Shown piece by piece: positions 30,477 to 43,123 of a stretch of 64,000 nt of DNA (positions within the stretch are counted from its first letter, which is position 1; every line of letters begins with the position of its first letter). The DNA lies in contig CAMMZC010000005.1 in NCBI GenBank assembly GCA_946529215.1, forward strand, positions 1 to 64,000, written 5' to 3'. A program made the translations under genes and the position numbers. The notes under the pieces are model-generated. The model had not been told where the DNA came from. It ran no database searches and saw only the letters and a program-made list of their open reading frames with translations. Source of the DNA: an uncultured Clostridia bacterium (GTDB taxonomy: Bacteria > Bacillota > Clostridia > TANB77 > CAG-508).

Positions 30477-30851
30477 TTAAAGTTTAAAAAATTGTTTTAA
30501 TTTTTTTATCACTCTTACAAATATATTATTTTTAGTTTGAACAACAGACATATTTATACTTTCTTCGTTTTTTATTTCAGAATTATATTTTTTCTCATTA
30601 AAAATATTTTCTCGATTATATTGCTCATTTTTTTTATTTTCTTTAATTTCCTTTATTTGGCTATTTATTTCTACTATATCGTCGTGATTTTTTTGAAATA
30701 ACTCTTTAACAGCTAAAAGTCTTTCATCATTAGGGTCTATTTTTTCTTCTTTTAGCTCATCTAATTTATCACATAATTTTTTATATTCCCTAGCTTTTAA
30801 ATCAAGTTCCATAGTAAGACCAACAAGTTTAGTTTGGCTTAAATTCATCAT
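30477..30851 (-). CDS. Hypothetical coiled-coil protein downstream of the DGR variable protein
   Basis: Intact 124-aa ORF overlapping the 30848 ORF by 4 nt. Confidence 0.5.
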   Translation of the reverse strand: MMNLSQTKLVGLTMELDLKAREYKKLCDKLDELKEEKIDPNDERLLAVKELFQKNHDDIVEINSQIKEIKENKKNEQYNRENIFNEKKYNSEIKNEESINMSVVQTKNNIFVRVIKKLKQFFKL

Positions 30852-33282
30852 CTATTTTGTCCTCCATTCTCTATTTGTTTTTGTTCTCTTTGATAAAGAA
30901 TGTATTGTTCTTTTTTCATTGCATCTCGAAATTCATATTCAGATGGCACAGTTAAATTTGAAGTTGCTTTTTTAAATCTTTCTACCTGCCTTTTTAATCT
31001 ATTATAACCCATACCAATATTTATTTGTTGCAATGGCTTATCTGGATTTTGTCTATCATATTCTTTTATAAAAGCCTTTAATCCTCTTTGGAATGCTTTA
31101 AATATCATTTCTCTATCTTGTTCCTCTGGACTTGTTTCCTCTACATTATATCTTCCTGAATCATATTCTCTTTCGTGATGTCTATATTTTTCATTAAGCT
31201 CAAAATCATTAATTACAGCATAACCTCTTGCTTTATTTACATACATTGTACCTTTTGATATTATATCGCCTTTTGAATTTCTAACAACAAGATTCTGTAC
31301 ATCAGGAGCAATAACACTTGCTCTCGCAATATCTTTTCCATAGTATTGACTTGTAATTGTCCCACAACAACTACAAAATAGTCCCATTATGCTATTATGT
31401 GGATCATTTTTACTAAGCCATTCATAAGTAAATTGCTTATCATATAATTCTTCTATCATTTCTCTTCCACTTACTAATTCTTCTTCAGTTTGCCTTCTGA
31501 TTCTTTCTATGCTTTCTAAAATTGTTTCTTCTCTTATTAGCTTTCCTAATATATGTTCTGGTACATTATTTATTTTTTGCTCTTCTCTCAATCGGCATAT
31601 TTCATCAAATATTTCTTGACTAAGACCTCTTTCTGCACATAAAGCGGCAATGTCTTCATTATCTTTGGTTTCCCCATCATATTTAACCTCCAAATACATT
31701 GCTATCATTGCCTCTTCCCAGCTTCTATTTACATTTCTTCCATTAACAATATTGGTTCTTTTTTTCTGTACCTTATCAAAGTTTGACATTACTTTAATAA
31801 ACATTCCAGGATAATTTCTCTCTAAATTTAAAATTAAATCCAAATTTTGCAGATTTTTCTTATCCCCTTGTATAGATATAAATTTTAGAAATTCTTGATT
31901 AGGCTGGACATCCAATGGCATTGAATCAAATAGACCGTGATACCTACCGCAATTTCATTTCATCTGTTTTTAAAATTATGGCAAGTAATGAAGTGGCTTT
32001 TTGTGCCAAAGGAACTTGTGTTTCTTTACCTTTTTTATCCAACATTTTTTCTGTTGAAAAACACCCTAGGCTACTGGCAAATTTATAAAAATCTAATCTT
32101 TCTTCTTCTGGAAAATCTAGTAGCATATCATTGATTTTTGGAATTTCATTTTTAAAAAATCTAAAATCGCTATTCTCTGTAAACGATTTTGTTTTTCCAC
32201 TTTGGGCTATAGCTAATCCATATACATAAGGAATACTAAATTTATTTTTACTTAAAATTTCTGAAAACTCGGTTATTTCGCCTAGTTTATCGCTTTGTAC
32301 TAATATACTGTAATCAAATCCATCAAAAGATTTTACTATTTTACCAAGCTCTACCACATCTGTATATTCATTTTCATTTTTAGGTAATTCTTGTGCAAAT
32401 ACTAATTTCCTTGTTTTTGTTCTGTATGCATATTTAAACTGTAATCCATCAAAAGCTCTTTTTCCAATAGATTTTATTCCTGAATGCATTATTAACTTTT
32501 TAAGTGTTATACACCCATTAAATGCGTCATCTGGTACTTCTTTCTCGCTATCTGGTATTGCATATTCTATCATTGGCTCTCTGGATAAGTTAAATGCCTC
32601 ATTTAAGAAATTACATTCTCCTGTAAAATTTCCACCTCGACTAGCACCATATTCTATATTACCATTTGATTGTATGTTTCTAACATCTATTCCATTTAGA
32701 AAACCACGTGGCATACTATTTTGCCACATTGTAATATTTTGGTCATCTTCATTTAGGTAGAATGGAATATTTGAAATAATTGCTTCTTCTGCTCTTAGAT
32801 CAAAATATTTTGCTTTTCCATTTCCTTTTGGGTTTATCCATTTTGGCATTTCATCCCAATTTTTTATTACAAAAGAAATTGGTTCAACTTTTGCCCATCT
32901 TATTGTACCTGCTTTTCCAGTTGGTGTTCCATCAGAATATCTATCTTCTTCACTATTTGGATATGATACTACACGCACATATCTGTTCCCTTGATATTCA
33001 AATTCTGGGCTATGTTTTCCTGCATAATCTTTACATTCTTCTTTTTGACCATTACCTGAATACCATCTACCAGTACATAAAATTCCTTCTTGGATTTTTC
33101 CTCCGTGATATAATGACTCTAATATTCTACTCAAATCTTCGTTGGCTTTTGTTCCAGTATACTCTCCAATATGTAATGTATGACATATAGTTTTTCCGAT
33201 CGAGGTCTTTTACTTCTCTTATATCAAATTGTTCTAGTTTTTTGCTTTCATCTCTATTTTTTTTCCCTTTTAAAATTCGTAA

Positions 33283-33340
33283 CGCACTTCGTGCGGAGAT
33301 ATTAGACGGAAGATGATAATGCAAAGACGGGCTCAGCCCA
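33283..33340 (-). other. Two small hairpins just 3' of the variable repeat
   Basis: Minus strand GGGCTGAGCCC (33330-33340) and CGCACGAAGTGCG with GAA triloop (33283-33295). Confidence 0.55.
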
Positions 33341-33342
33341 AG

Positions 33343-33430
33343 GTCCCTGTTAGAAGGTAATGCTGGTCTCCAATCGCCAACGCCATGAACACAGTAGCCA
33401 TAATAACTAGAATAGGCGGAGCGGAGCCAC
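33343..33430 (-). repeat. DGR variable repeat (VR)
   Basis: Ungapped alignment to the 34936-35023 template at offset 1593; 19-nt identical block ATAGGCGGAGCGGAGCCAC. Confidence 0.75.
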
Positions 33431-33697
33431 GCACAAGTTGTTCGTCTGCCAGTACACGTAGTATAGCCATCAAATGTATAAGCATTATTCATTTTAGCAT
33501 AATCAGTAGCAGATATTCTTCTTTCCTTATCTGTTCTTTTATTATCATAGTACTCATGATAGCTATCTAAATATATTAAATCAGTTGTATTGAATTTTTT
33601 ATTTCCCATCTCTTGATTTTCGTCTGTGTTTTCAATTGTATGCGGTTCAATGTTACATCTTAAATCTCTTCTTTCCATATGTACTCCTTTATTTATT

Positions 33698-34707
33698 CTA
33701 TAGATTATTTATTTTTCTATATAAACTCCTGGCATTAGAATGGCATATATGTGCATAAAATGCTGTTAATCTTGTATTTATATAATCCTCATCTACTAAA
33801 ATTTTTTTCAGTTTTGATAATATTTTCATATTTCTCTTTAACCTTAATTTTGCTTGTCCCCTTAAAAGTCTTATTACTTTTCCATTTTCAGTAAGTATAT
33901 GGCTAAACCCTAAAAAATCTATTCCATCCTTTATATTTAATATTTGAGTTTTATTATTCAGCTCTAACTTCAAATTATCATTTGCACATTTTTCGATTTT
34001 CTCTTTACAATATTTTAGATATTCCTTATCATTATGTAATAAAATCATATCATCCATATATCTAACATAATACTTTATTCTTAATTTTTCCTTTATTAAT
34101 CTATCTATTTCGTCAAGATAATAAAGTCCAAACCATTGACTCGTTTGATTTCCTATAGGAAGTCCTACTCCTTTTTTTGATTTTTACTATCTATTATTAA
34201 TTTTAAAATCCATATTTCGTCTTCATCAAATTTTTCCTTTTTTAATTTATTAAATAGTATTGTATGGTCAATATTTTGAAAATATTTTCTCACATCACAC
34301 TTTAATACATACCCTTGATTAGTTTTAAATTTTTTATAATATGAATGTAAAAATATTTCCAACCTTTTTATTCAAAAATCTGTACCTTTGCCTTTTCTAC
34401 AAGCTACATTATCATATATTAATCTTCTTTTAAATTTTGGCTCTATAATATTATTACATAAAGCCATTAAAACTACTCTATCTCTATAGAATAGAGCCTC
34501 TATTATTCTTTCTTTTGGCTCATATATTTTAAATTGTTTGTATGTACCAACTTTATATGTTTTATTTTTTATTTGGTTTGACAAATCTACTAGATTTTGA
34601 CTCAAATTTATTTCAAAATTTATAGTTTCTCTTTTGTGCTGTTTAGAACATCTACATTTTCTATGTGCTTCTAACAACTTTTCGAAACTAAATAATTCTT
34701 CTATCAC
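33698..34707 (-). pseudogene. DGR-type reverse transcriptase, interrupted by TGA at 34372-34374 and a -1 frameshift in T7 at 34172-34178
   Basis: Joined frames read GYVLKCDVRKYFQNIDHTILF ... KKGVGLPIGNQTSQWFGLYYLDEIDRLIKEKLRIKYYVRYMDDMILLH; SQ in the GLPIGNQTSQ motif and YMDD. Confidence 0.85.
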
Positions 34708-34855
34708 TTCTATTCCTCCATATAATAAAAAAGAGCTATCCTTCTATCACTAGATAAACTTCCAAAGCTAACGCGTTGGTCGTCAAGATAGCCATTTTCT
34801 TCTGACTCTTTTTCAGAGTTCAAAAAAGCGTAAGATTCCTTTGCCTTAAACACTC

Positions 34856-34877
34856 ATTTATTCTACTTAGAATAAAT
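34856..34877. repeat. 10-bp-arm palindrome ATTTATTCTA-CT-TAGAATAAAT downstream of the template repeat
   Basis: Direct reading. Confidence 0.6.
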
Positions 34878-34935
34878 ACTTCTGGTCATTTTTGAAAGAT
34901 ATATATCTTTCATTCAAAGGTAAACTGGGCACAGC

Positions 34936-35023
34936 ATTTCTGTTTTTAGTATATTTATTGTTCCAGTCGCCGTCGCCATTTACATAGTTTACATTGTATC
35001 TATTATAGGCGGAGCGGAGCCAC
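34936..35023 (-). repeat. DGR template repeat (TR)
   Basis: Adenine-rich AAY codons reading LWLRSAYNRYNVNYVNGDGDWNNKYTKNRN; differences to VR concentrated at A. Confidence 0.75.
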
Positions 35024-35101
35024 AAAGAGTCTCTAAATGTCAACGCCACACGTGCGATTGTAATCTTACCTTAATGAAAGCATTTCTGCATAACATCCTT
35101 A

Positions 35102-35568
35102 CTATTTTCTTTCAGCATCACTTTTTCGCCAAGCAACTAATAAATTTATACAATCAGATAACTGTAATGATATTTGTTGATATTGTTTTTTAAATACATT
35201 GATTTTCTAATGCAAGAAAAAGATATATATCCTAATAATTTCAATTTTAAAAAAGCCATTATTTGACATTCTCTTCTTCTTTCTTTATTTTTAACACTAT
35301 CCATCCTAATTGAATTTGCCTCAATTAAATTTTCTATACAATCCAAACTATAATTTTGCATTCTATTAATAAAAACTGCTCTAAATTTTTTGGGTGATTT
35401 TTCAGTAATAGTTATTACATATGCTGTCAATTTTTTTGCTTTAGTTATTACTATAAGTTCACTAGAATCTGATGGTATTTTTGTTTTATTACCACCTTCT
35501 TCTACACTTGGAATAACTTTTGGCATTCTTAAACCATTTTTCCTACCAATATTTTCTTCTATTTTCAT
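35102..35568 (-). pseudogene. DGR accessory variability determinant (Avd-like), frameshifted at T6 35186-35191
   Basis: KKFRAVFINRMQNYSLDCIENLIEAN...KLLGYIS, and in the shifted frame QYQQISLQLSDCINLLVAWRKSDAERK. Confidence 0.6.
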
Positions 35569-35739
35569 TTTTATCTACCAAGTTAATTATATATTTTTCT
35601 ATATTTTTTGTAAATACTTTTCTATAAAAATCTCAAAAAAGAGACCATCTTAGCTACTAAAAAGCAATAATGATAGCCTCTTTTATTTCTATTAAATCAA
35701 GGAAATTCTTTGGTATACTGGTTTTAATACAATTTCCAA

Positions 35740-39797: not shown

Positions 39798-40094
39798 TCA
39801 TTTTTTCTCATATAGATATAATTTTTGCTTAAAAATATATTTTATAATATATTTTAAAAAATACAATAAATTTTCTCCTTCTACTCCAACAATACTAAAA
39901 ATAACTACAGGAAAAACTAAAATTATAAAAGCAAAAATTTTATGTGTTAATCTCTTAAGTAGTAAATTTATTAAAACAAATACTATCGCTCCCCAAATTG
40001 CATCGACTATAGCTGCAGAGTAATCAATAATTCCAAATATTTTTGTATTTAAATCATAATTCTGCGGAAAAATAAACTTCAATTTTATTATCAC
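39798..40094 (-). CDS. PrgI/VirB3-like membrane protein
   Basis: Small two-TM protein with PrgI-like spacing, next to VirB6/VirD4-like genes. Confidence 0.5.
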   Translation of the reverse strand: MIIKLKFIFPQNYDLNTKIFGIIDYSAAIVDAIWGAIVFVLINLLLKRLTHKIFAFIILVFPVVIFSIVGVEGENLLYFLKYIIKYIFKQKLYLYEKK

Positions 40095-40162
40095 CTCTTT
40101 CCTTTTTTATATAAAACTTTCTTGCAAAATGTTTAACTACAATATCAAAAACATAATTTCTT

Positions 40163-41038
40163 TTAGTCCCCTTTCACTAATCCAATATTTGCCTGCACAT
40201 TTGTAGAAATACCTGTTCCCATCATAAATTCCTTAACAAAAGAATTAGCTCTAATTAAACTGTAAATTCCACCAACATAAATAAATTTCACCATTAAATC
40301 ATTTGAATTATAATCAACAGAAAATAGAATAAGTAGCACTAAAGAAACTATAATTTGTATAAATAACATCGATAACAGATTTCTAAGCCACAATCTAAAA
40401 AACATAGAAGTATTTTCCATACTTAAAGATAAAATAGCAAAAGGAGAAATTAAAACTAAAATTTTAATAGTAACATATCTTAAAGCATAAACAGTAACTA
40501 AATTAACTAATGAAATAGTAGTTGTTCCTTTTATTAACCCGTCTACTGAAAAAACATTTAAATTTTCAGAAATTTTTAAATTTGAATTTATAACTTCAAT
40601 TAATCTAGAAAAACAAATATTTTGCTTAAACAGGTCTTCTCCTATACTTCTAATAGCAGAAGAAATGCTTGAATTTATATCTAGAATTTGCTGGATAATA
40701 AAGTAAGAACTATTCATTGCAATTCCAAAAATAATTAATTTAAATATAAACTGCGTTGGATTTTCTATTTTTGAAAGTGTAATATTTGAAGATAAATATT
40801 TAGTTGAATAATATAAAATATACCCAAAAAGTAATGCATTTGCAATTAATAGAATTCCATTTGTAGAGCTGGTTCCAAAAATCTTACCAAAATATTTATC
40901 ATTTAAAATATTTGAATTAATAAAAGTTAAGTTATCCAAAACTTTAAATAAATTATTGTCTATAGATTTAAATAAATTGCTAAAAATTGTATTTATTGTA
41001 TCAATTACTACTTGACTCATATTAGTATTTTGTTCCAA
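40163..41038 (-). CDS. VirB6/TrbL-like multi-TM protein
   Basis: Hydrophobic topology, position next to VirB2-like and VirD4-like genes. Confidence 0.55.
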   Translation of the reverse strand: MEQNTNMSQVVIDTINTIFSNLFKSIDNNLFKVLDNLTFINSNILNDKYFGKIFGTSSTNGILLIANALLFGYILYYSTKYLSSNITLSKIENPTQFIFKLIIFGIAMNSSYFIIQQILDINSSISSAIRSIGEDLFKQNICFSRLIEVINSNLKISENLNVFSVDGLIKGTTTISLVNLVTVYALRYVTIKILVLISPFAILSLSMENTSMFFRLWLRNLLSMLFIQIIVSLVLLILFSVDYNSNDLMVKFIYVGGIYSLIRANSFVKEFMMGTGISTNVQANIGLVKGD

Positions 41039-41071
41039 AACATTCCTCCTTTTTCCATTATTTTTAATTCT

Positions 41072-41407
41072 TTATATTAGCGACTTAATAGCTGCTAAAA
41101 TTAAATCAATAGCCAAAATAAAAGCATAAGAAAATAGAGAACTTCTAATTATTTTTTTTCCTGTTCTAATTCTTTCCTCATCTCCAAAACTAAATTTTTT
41201 CATAAAAATCCCTGTACCTACTGCTACTGCTGCAGCTGGTGTAGAAAGTTTTATAATCCAACTTTCTATATTACTAAAAGCACTTTCCATTTTTGAAACA
41301 AGTTTAGGAGTTGCTGCAAAAACACTTGTACCAAAACTTATTGCAAAAACAAAACTAAAAATTAATATAACAATAAAATAAAACATTTTCTTTTTCAAAA
41401 ATATCAC
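41072..41407 (-). CDS. VirB2/TrbC pilin-like protein
   Basis: Signal-like N-terminus, then two TM segments. Confidence 0.5.
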   Translation of the reverse strand: MIFLKKKMFYFIVILIFSFVFAISFGTSVFAATPKLVSKMESAFSNIESWIIKLSTPAAAVAVGTGIFMKKFSFGDEERIRTGKKIIRSSLFSYAFILAIDLILAAIKSLI

Positions 41408-41479
41408 CTTTCCTTTTAATTATTTAGGTTTTTACGGTACCTATAAACCTAACAAAAATAATATTTATACTATATCAAT

Positions 41480-43123
41480 TTATGTTTTAAAATACGGATA
41501 CATATTCAATTTTTTGGGTTTCAAAATCTTTTTTCCATCAGATAGAAACGCTAGAGCCGTAAAAGTTTGCAATTTTTGTGTAAAAAAATTAGTATCATAA
41601 ATATAGTCATTTTGTGTATAAACATTAAAACTCTCTGATATTGTTGCATCTAAAGAACTCATAGAATTCGTCATTCTACTATAAATTGTTTCCTTCGAAT
41701 TTTCTGAAATATTTTTCGAAGTTTTAATTTTATCCTCTTTTCCAAGTTGTTTCTGTGCCTCCTCTATTGTAAAAATATCATCTGTTCTGAACCAAATTTT
41801 ATTTATCAAATTTTGGCAAATTACTTTTACCGCTGTTTCATCTTTTAAAGTATTTTTGATTGATGAATAACTTTGAGTACTTACAATATTTATGCATTTT
41901 GCTTCTCTACTAAGAGAGAAAAATTCACTATCTGTTTTTGTTACATATTCAGCATATTCATCACAAATAAAAGCAGTTGTTTTTACTTTATCTTTTGATA
42001 AATTCATCATAACCTCTGTTTGAAAATCTAATTTTAAATATGCTGCAATTATTTTGGATAAATTTCTATATTCAGCAATATTCATATTTAAAACTACTAT
42101 TTTCCCTTTTTGAATTATATCTGAAAATCCTCTAAAATTCAGTTCATTTTTTGAACTGCAAAAAATTTTACTTACATCATAGTCTGAAACAAAAACATTT
42201 GTAATTCTTGTAATTTCAGACTTCAAAATAGCCATAGTTCTTTGATCCAATTTTTCATATTCTTTTTGAAAAAAATCCAAAGCAGTATTTAAATCATAAA
42301 TCTGTTGGTACTTTAAATTTTTATTCATAAATAAATTTCTTATAATTTGTATTTTTTCTTTGTAATAGTTCTCTTCTGTAATAATTTTATGAAGTTCTGT
42401 AAAAGTTACATATCCATTGTTATAAATTCTGCATAATTTAATTGCCTCTGTTAAAACCTGCTCTGCTTTATCTAGCCAATAACTTTCAGAATTATTTTCA
42501 GAAAATAACGTCAAAATTGTTTTTAATCTATTTGCTATTACTGATGGCTTTAAATTAGGCTTATGCAAAGGGTTATATTTAGTTTTTCCATTAAGCTCAA
42601 TTACAATTAAATCATTTTTCAAATTATATTTTTCTGCATATTTTTTTACTTGATTATAGTAATTTCCTTTTACATCTAAAATTAATGTCCCAACTTTTTT
42701 ATCAGGATTTTTACTATTATAGTTTAAAATTTGCTCAGTAAATGGATACATTGCAGAACTTGTTTTTCCAGTTCCTATAGTTCCTGTAATTAGAAAATTT
42801 TGATATAACCCAGACTCTTGAACATACACATTTTTTCCTGTTTTTTCATCATTACCTATAAGTAAATTTAATTTTTCTGTTTTTAGTTTATATTTTTCTT
42901 TTTTAACTTTCTTTTTGAAAACTATTTTAGAATAAATAAAATTAAGATAAATTATATTTGCAAAAACAAATGAAATAGCATAAATAATTTTTATATAATA
43001 CCAGATCTGTGGATACTCAGAAACTATGTTAAAACTTTTAATTCCATAGGAAATAATAATCTGTTTTGAATTTAGTAATGAGTAGAATAAATTGTAAAAA
43101 ATACAACAAATTACACATAACAA
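41480..43123 (-). CDS. VirD4/TraG-like type IV coupling ATPase
   Basis: LITGTIGTGKTSSAMYPFTEQIL, TLILDVKGNYYNQV, FICDEYAEYV, STQSYSSI. Confidence 0.88.
   Translation of the reverse strand: MLCVICCIFYNLFYSLLNSKQIIISYGIKSFNIVSEYPQIWYYIKIIYAISFVFANIIYLNFIYSKIVFKKKVKKEKYKLKTEKLNLLIGNDEKTGKNVYVQESGLYQNFLITGTIGTGKTSSAMYPFTEQILNYNSKNPDKKVGTLILDVKGNYYNQVKKYAEKYNLKNDLIVIELNGKTKYNPLHKPNLKPSVIANRLKTILTLFSENNSESYWLDKAEQVLTEAIKLCRIYNNGYVTFTELHKIITEENYYKEKIQIIRNLFMNKNLKYQQIYDLNTALDFFQKEYEKLDQRTMAILKSEITRITNVFVSDYDVSKIFCSSKNELNFRGFSDIIQKGKIVVLNMNIAEYRNLSKIIAAYLKLDFQTEVMMNLSKDKVKTTAFICDEYAEYVTKTDSEFFSLSREAKCINIVSTQSYSSIKNTLKDETAVKVICQNLINKIWFRTDDIFTIEEAQKQLGKEDKIKTSKNISENSKETIYSRMTNSMSSLDATISESFNVYTQNDYIYDTNFFTQKLQTFTALAFLSDGKKILKPKKLNMYPYFKT

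Follow-up and report, generated by a model that had tools for sequence, protein, structure and literature searches.

The window, meaning the whole stretch of 64,000 nucleotides analysed here, carries on its minus strand a gene cluster identified by its sequence as a diversity-generating retroelement (DGR), with the order avd, template repeat (TR), reverse transcriptase (RT), target gene with variable region (VR), g369, and g130 (Table 1).

Table 1. Positions of the DGR features in the window.
Feature	Position	Strand	Evidence and remarks
g130 homologue, 124 aa, intact	30477..30851	minus	without known family
g369 homologue, 357 aa, intact	30848..31921	minus	without Pfam family; fused to target in L047 and L256
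Target, rest (middle domain and LRR_5)	31944..33205	minus	other frame than VR part; LRR_5 1.2e-5
Target, N-terminal part (variable domain; DUF6273 in L033)	33127..33678	minus	tblastn with L033 target, alignment; frame lost near 33205
Hairpin CGCAC-GAA-GTGCG	33283..33295	minus	behind VR, within coding sequence (SARSA)
GC-rich segment CTGAGCCCG	33328..33336	minus	VR 3' end; candidate initiation-of-homing site; common to TR and VR of relatives
VR	33343..33430	minus	TR/VR alignment
DGR RT, broken	33701..34707	minus	TGA 34372–34374, one base missing near 34172; RVT_1 2.5e-9
TR	34936..35023	minus	3' end 5 nt short next to 34935 compared with relatives
avd, broken	35105..35568	minus	extra base near 35222, two missing near 35197; NCBIfam DivGenRetAVD

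The initial annotation had paired the TR with the VR without gaps at an offset of 1593 and had described an adenine bias. Realignment bore out both claims (TR 35023–34936 against VR 33430–33343, minus strand): 22 of 35 template adenines were changed compared with 8 of 53 non-adenines (Fisher p = 5e-6), the latter falling on C (4/17) and T (4/19) and never on G (0/17). When the roles were swapped and the VR was taken as the template, just 3 of 16 adenines differed; the direction of copying from TR to VR is therefore clear. A search for further VRs, which that annotation had proposed, matched the TR region to itself and the known VR alone, and no second VR was found by sequence searches of the 1.66-Mb assembly.

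The RT motifs GLPIGNQTSQ and YMDD, which had been read as typical of DGR RTs, are both present, but they lie in a different frame from the RT N-terminus. The RT pieces in the window are 76–83% identical to the intact RTs of 3 relatives (L033–L035, described below). The intact L034 RT matched chain 8ub7 (titled reverse transcriptase, which we take to be the DGR RT of Bordetella phage) at 2.4e-37, with group II and retron RTs scoring far lower, and it matched the PHROG DGR RT family phrog_1423 at 3.9e-106. Searches of the 1.66-Mb genome found no second RT of the DGR type. The ORF ahead of the TR, at first called Avd-like, matched the NCBIfam model DivGenRetAVD (NF033474) at 1.5e-6, which supports that label, but the match is below the curated cut-off and the gene is frameshifted. 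The broken avd was traced by tblastn with the L035 Avd (two frames) and by nucleotide alignment, and its N-terminal linker is shorter than that of L035. The L034 Avd matched the PHROG Avd-of-DGR family phrog_3206 at 3.1e-20.

The L033 target consists of a DUF6273 domain containing the VR (residues 6–117, 5.5e-6), a middle domain, and LRR_5 (Pfam), with the VR at about residues 85–115 of 576; the window segment 31944..33205 is 75% identical to its residues 135–576. Searches of PHROG and PADLOC assigned neither g369 nor g130 to a family and gave no firm hit to the L033 target, and the predicted fold of g369 is poor (pLDDT 62). Published modelling gives the DUF6273 domain a C-type lectin fold (PMC10743442). 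A fold search of the target model (pLDDT 80) against the PDB gave no significant match, and the C-lectin fold was thus not confirmed.

Most other genes in the window are open, including g369 and g130 behind the target. Positions 39798–43123 hold conjugation-type genes, namely a TrbL/VirB6-like gene and a TrwB/TraG-type coupling protein gene. Short adjacent ORFs at 1148–1930, which are presumably TatD-like, may be one broken gene.

Relatives and the hairpin within the target gene

A scan of GTDB genomes placed the closest RTs (80–83% identical) in 3 Clostridia/Eubacteriales MAGs (L033–L035), and RTs of about 50–70% identity in MAGs labelled Clostridia, Bacilli, Tenericutes, and Alphaproteobacteria. 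In the genus of the window, 65 of 98 genomes have some RT match, 6 of them at about 57% identity. The operon of L033–L035 is that of the window, that is, avd-TR-RT-target (DUF6273 VR domain and LRR)-g369-g130, and their TR/VR pairs differ at 14/33, 12/33, and 10/33 adenines and at 0/69, 0/77, and 1/76 non-adenines, respectively. The g369 gene is present in only 11 of 388 genomes of the order; besides the two loci in which the target and g369 form one protein (Table 1), the L045 and L048 targets carry at their C-terminus a third part that is distantly g369-like (BLASTP 1e-4, one comparison). Five loci (L251, L253, L254, L255, and L256) carry a target-g369-g130 unit with no RT, avd, or TR within the sequence covered; these units may be orphan targets or may be varied in trans. 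The targets of L034 (position ~12009) and L035 (~11998) have a common frameshift in their 3' part, behind which the differences still fall mostly at the third codon position (12, 7, 21), and the frameshift may represent a split gene, a programmed frameshift, or a recent break.

In many clade members, a MoxR-type AAA+ domain (AAA_5) follows the shared middle domain and replaces the LRR/g369 part. These AAA+ targets are followed by a small gene and then by a DUF2201 metallopeptidase-VWA gene; MoxR AAA+ and vWA partners were seen in L040, L057, and L083, and a domain search found neither in the window operon. Four loci (L070, L081, L089, and L093) have 2 tandem AAA+ targets, each with a VR matching the one TR. 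The same RT clade, with similar targets, occurs in MAGs labelled Alphaproteobacteria/Rickettsiales (L057, L067, L069, L090, L097, and L107), which suggests that the RT clade has spread horizontally. The wider clade is chromosomal and is a new variant within DGRs, and the interest lies more in the clade than in the window copy.

According to a large survey, DGR targets have C-terminal VRs, a layout explained by the keeping of the cis-acting homing elements outside the coding sequence (PMC8144416). A C-terminal VR is near-universal, though not strictly defining, and the VR here is N-terminal: in 46 VR rows, it lies approximately 65–110 codons into the open frame, which continues past it for 100 codons or more. 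The GAA-loop hairpin that the initial annotation had placed after the VR is present at 33283–33295, and a hairpin after the VR and inside the ORF was found in 41 of the 46 VRs; the 5 loci outside these 41 have AGA in the loop. The loop lies 31–39 nt past the VR in nearly all cases (60 nt in L039). In the controls, shuffled sequences gave such hairpins at a rate of at most 0.8%, and the segment behind the TR gave none (0/46). An Rfam search of positions 33000–35700 returned no known RNA.

The hairpin takes 2 forms. Form 1 (the window and L033–L048) is a stem of 5–6 bp with a GNA triloop, and form 2 comprises an outer stem, a GA/GA tandem mismatch, 2 bp, and a GNA triloop. Covariation is strong in form 2 (0.60 compared with 0.17 in shuffles, 0/500 as high), where sliding destroys the signal, and it is also supported in form 1, which mostly encodes SARSA and in which an A-T to G-C swap is synonymous on both sides. 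The clade thus keeps its in-ORF hairpin through matched, partly synonymous changes, and the C-terminal rule (PMC8144416) is therefore not absolute. The N-terminal VR with an in-ORF hairpin is an unusual departure from the common DGR layout.

Stop codons in the templates

An in-frame stop codon occurs in 15 of 33 distinct templates of the N-terminal class compared with 1 of 23 of the C-terminal class (p = 8e-4), a comparison that leaves out 4 out-of-frame C-terminal templates and 1 natural terminator, exclusions chosen after seeing the data; with these put back, the C-terminal class has 6 of 28 (p = 0.06). Excluded were the stops of L028, L134, L138, and L142, where neither TR nor VR is in the expected frame, and that of L125, which is the end of its gene. 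In these 4 C-terminal loci, TR and VR share the shifted frame and the TR has several stops; all 6 TR stops of L134 are gone from its VR. Template stops were found in L033, L034, L035, L039, L048, L054, L058, L062, L065, L074, L075, L078, L080, L082, L088, L100, and L107. The stop-prone codons AAA/AAG/AGA are commoner relative to AAC/AAT in the N-terminal class (75:277) than in the C-terminal class (17:335). In the window, the TR has TAT at the site of TAG in L034 and L035 and of TAA in L033; the window VR has TTA there, which is compatible with a former TAA template but is not proof of one. Recoding of the template stops was put aside as unlikely because TAA, TAG, and TGA all occur among them.

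That the template stops have no role, the templates being untranslated and drift being tolerated because the targets are dispensable, has an even chance of being right in our judgement. In its favour, 8 of 18 template stops are kept in the VR, where 9.3 are expected by chance, and some cassettes, the one in the window included, are dead. Three observations stand against such drift: (i) the stop label requires at least 10 changes on the RT tree (built from the relatives, the broken window RT being left out), so that the state changed many times, with several independent origins of stops; (ii) stops are rarer in C-terminal templates; and (iii) in loci with a VR-kept stop, the frame behind it stays open for 370–648 codons.

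Because the VR precedes the proposed effector part and the template has an in-frame stop, the chromosomal clade could instead both vary and switch its target, so that ON variants and OFF cells would arise as a random mixture, with the window as a dead member; we put this forward tentatively and consider it possible but doubtful. If this switching occurs, each homing event that turns the stop into a sense codon would give a new binding face, and one that keeps the stop would shut the protein off. Template stops conflict with a published account in which DGR codons guard against truncation (PMC12875486). They also suggest that a DGR could act as an on/off switch too. We found no description of template stops in DGRs in the literature searched, which covered few subscription papers.

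Probable loss of activity in the window copy

Comparison with the relatives revealed lesions that the initial annotation had not reported: (i) a nonsense codon in the RT (GGA to TGA, compared with L033–L035); (ii) an RT frameshift caused by the loss of one base within an A-tract, compared with the same loci; (iii) 2 frameshifts in avd (+1 and −2); (iv) an additional base in the target just past the VR, with which the frame is lost; and (v) the 5-nt deletion in the TR. No intact target was found in searches elsewhere in the genome of the window. The RT pieces have a low dN/dS; values for the 3' region of the target in the window were discarded, having been computed in the wrong frame. The original reading of the locus as a DGR stands on the strength of its RT, its Avd, its hairpin, and the adenine bias of its TR/VR pair, but the element is very probably not a working one, given the lesions, and it is not typical, given the N-terminal VR and the in-ORF hairpin.

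Very probably, the window holds an inactivated DGR that belongs to a clade with intact, operon-sharing relatives. The loss was probably recent because the RT pieces keep a low dN/dS, and the 8 non-adenine TR/VR differences are consistent with an idle element. With both the writing machinery and the target broken, no further diversification would be expected in the window.

Some of the damage could be error rather than biology, because the assembly probably derives from a metagenome and an A-tract is the site of one RT frameshift. Taken to its end, this would mean that the organism has an unbroken, functional DGR and that all breaks are sequencing or assembly errors, as 4 lesions that are indels of 1–2 nt, one of them within the A-tract, and the purifying selection on the RT pieces would allow. 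We think this unlikely, since the RT stop is a substitution and the TR is short by 5 nt, since the pair has 8 non-adenine differences against 0–1 in the intact relatives, and since most remaining window genes are open.

An inactivated DGR in the window has precedents in the DiGReF survey, with which it shares a nonsense or frameshifted RT beside a recognisable TR/VR pair. The survey found DGRs with a broken RT and yet A-only changes, which were taken as very recent loss (PMC3521204); the window copy, by contrast, has gained non-adenine differences too. It would show a DGR after the death of its machinery, with the partner genes still open.

Proposed function and comparison with known systems

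In the intact relatives, Avd and RT would reverse-transcribe the TR RNA, making errors at adenines, and the resulting cDNA would take the place of the VR close to where the target gene starts; we infer that this homing is guided by the GC-rich 3' segment together with the hairpin embedded in the coding sequence of the target itself. The target may be a sensor with a varied binding face and its C-terminal or downstream part an effector, a sensor role that would be related to that of the MoxR-vWA conflict systems.

The locus shares avd, TR, RT, A-specific TR/VR differences, and a hairpin behind the VR with the BPP-1 DGR (mtd, avd, and brt). In BPP-1, however, the VR is C-terminal and the hairpin lies at the gene end, whereas in the window clade the VR is N-terminal and the hairpin is inside the ORF. 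Hairpins of the BPP-1 class have stems of 7–10 bp and a GRNA tetraloop (PMC3240598), unlike the 5–6-bp or GA/GA mismatch stems and GNA triloops of the clade, and the window element is very probably dead.

Tentaclins likewise have an N-terminal DUF6273 domain and a VR ahead of other domains, but they are phage proteins with Ig domains (PMC10743442), whereas the clade is chromosomal and has LRR/g369 or AAA+ parts. It is highly improbable that the target is a receptor-binding or adhesion protein of the phage type and that the cassette is what remains of a prophage: although gut phages often have DUF6273 C-lectin targets, the N-terminal tentaclins among them (PMC10743442, PMC11792537), the top RT match among viral contigs reaches only 58% identity, the partners are of LRR, AAA+, and metallopeptidase-VWA type with no Ig or tail domain found in the targets, and none of the genes next to the window cassette was recognised as a phage structural gene.

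MoxR-vWA systems whose lectin domains are varied by DGRs have been proposed to act in biological conflict, and most of them come from multicellular bacteria (PMC7159879, PMC10907252). Relatives of the window cassette share with them a putative lectin-type variable domain, MoxR AAA+, and VWA. In those systems, the variable domain either sits at the C-terminus or is joined to vWA, whereas in the relatives it is N-terminal and fused to AAA+, and the AAA+-type relatives are found in MAGs of Clostridia, Bacilli, and Alphaproteobacteria. The version in the window has LRR and g369 in place of the AAA+ and VWA of the MoxR-vWA systems.
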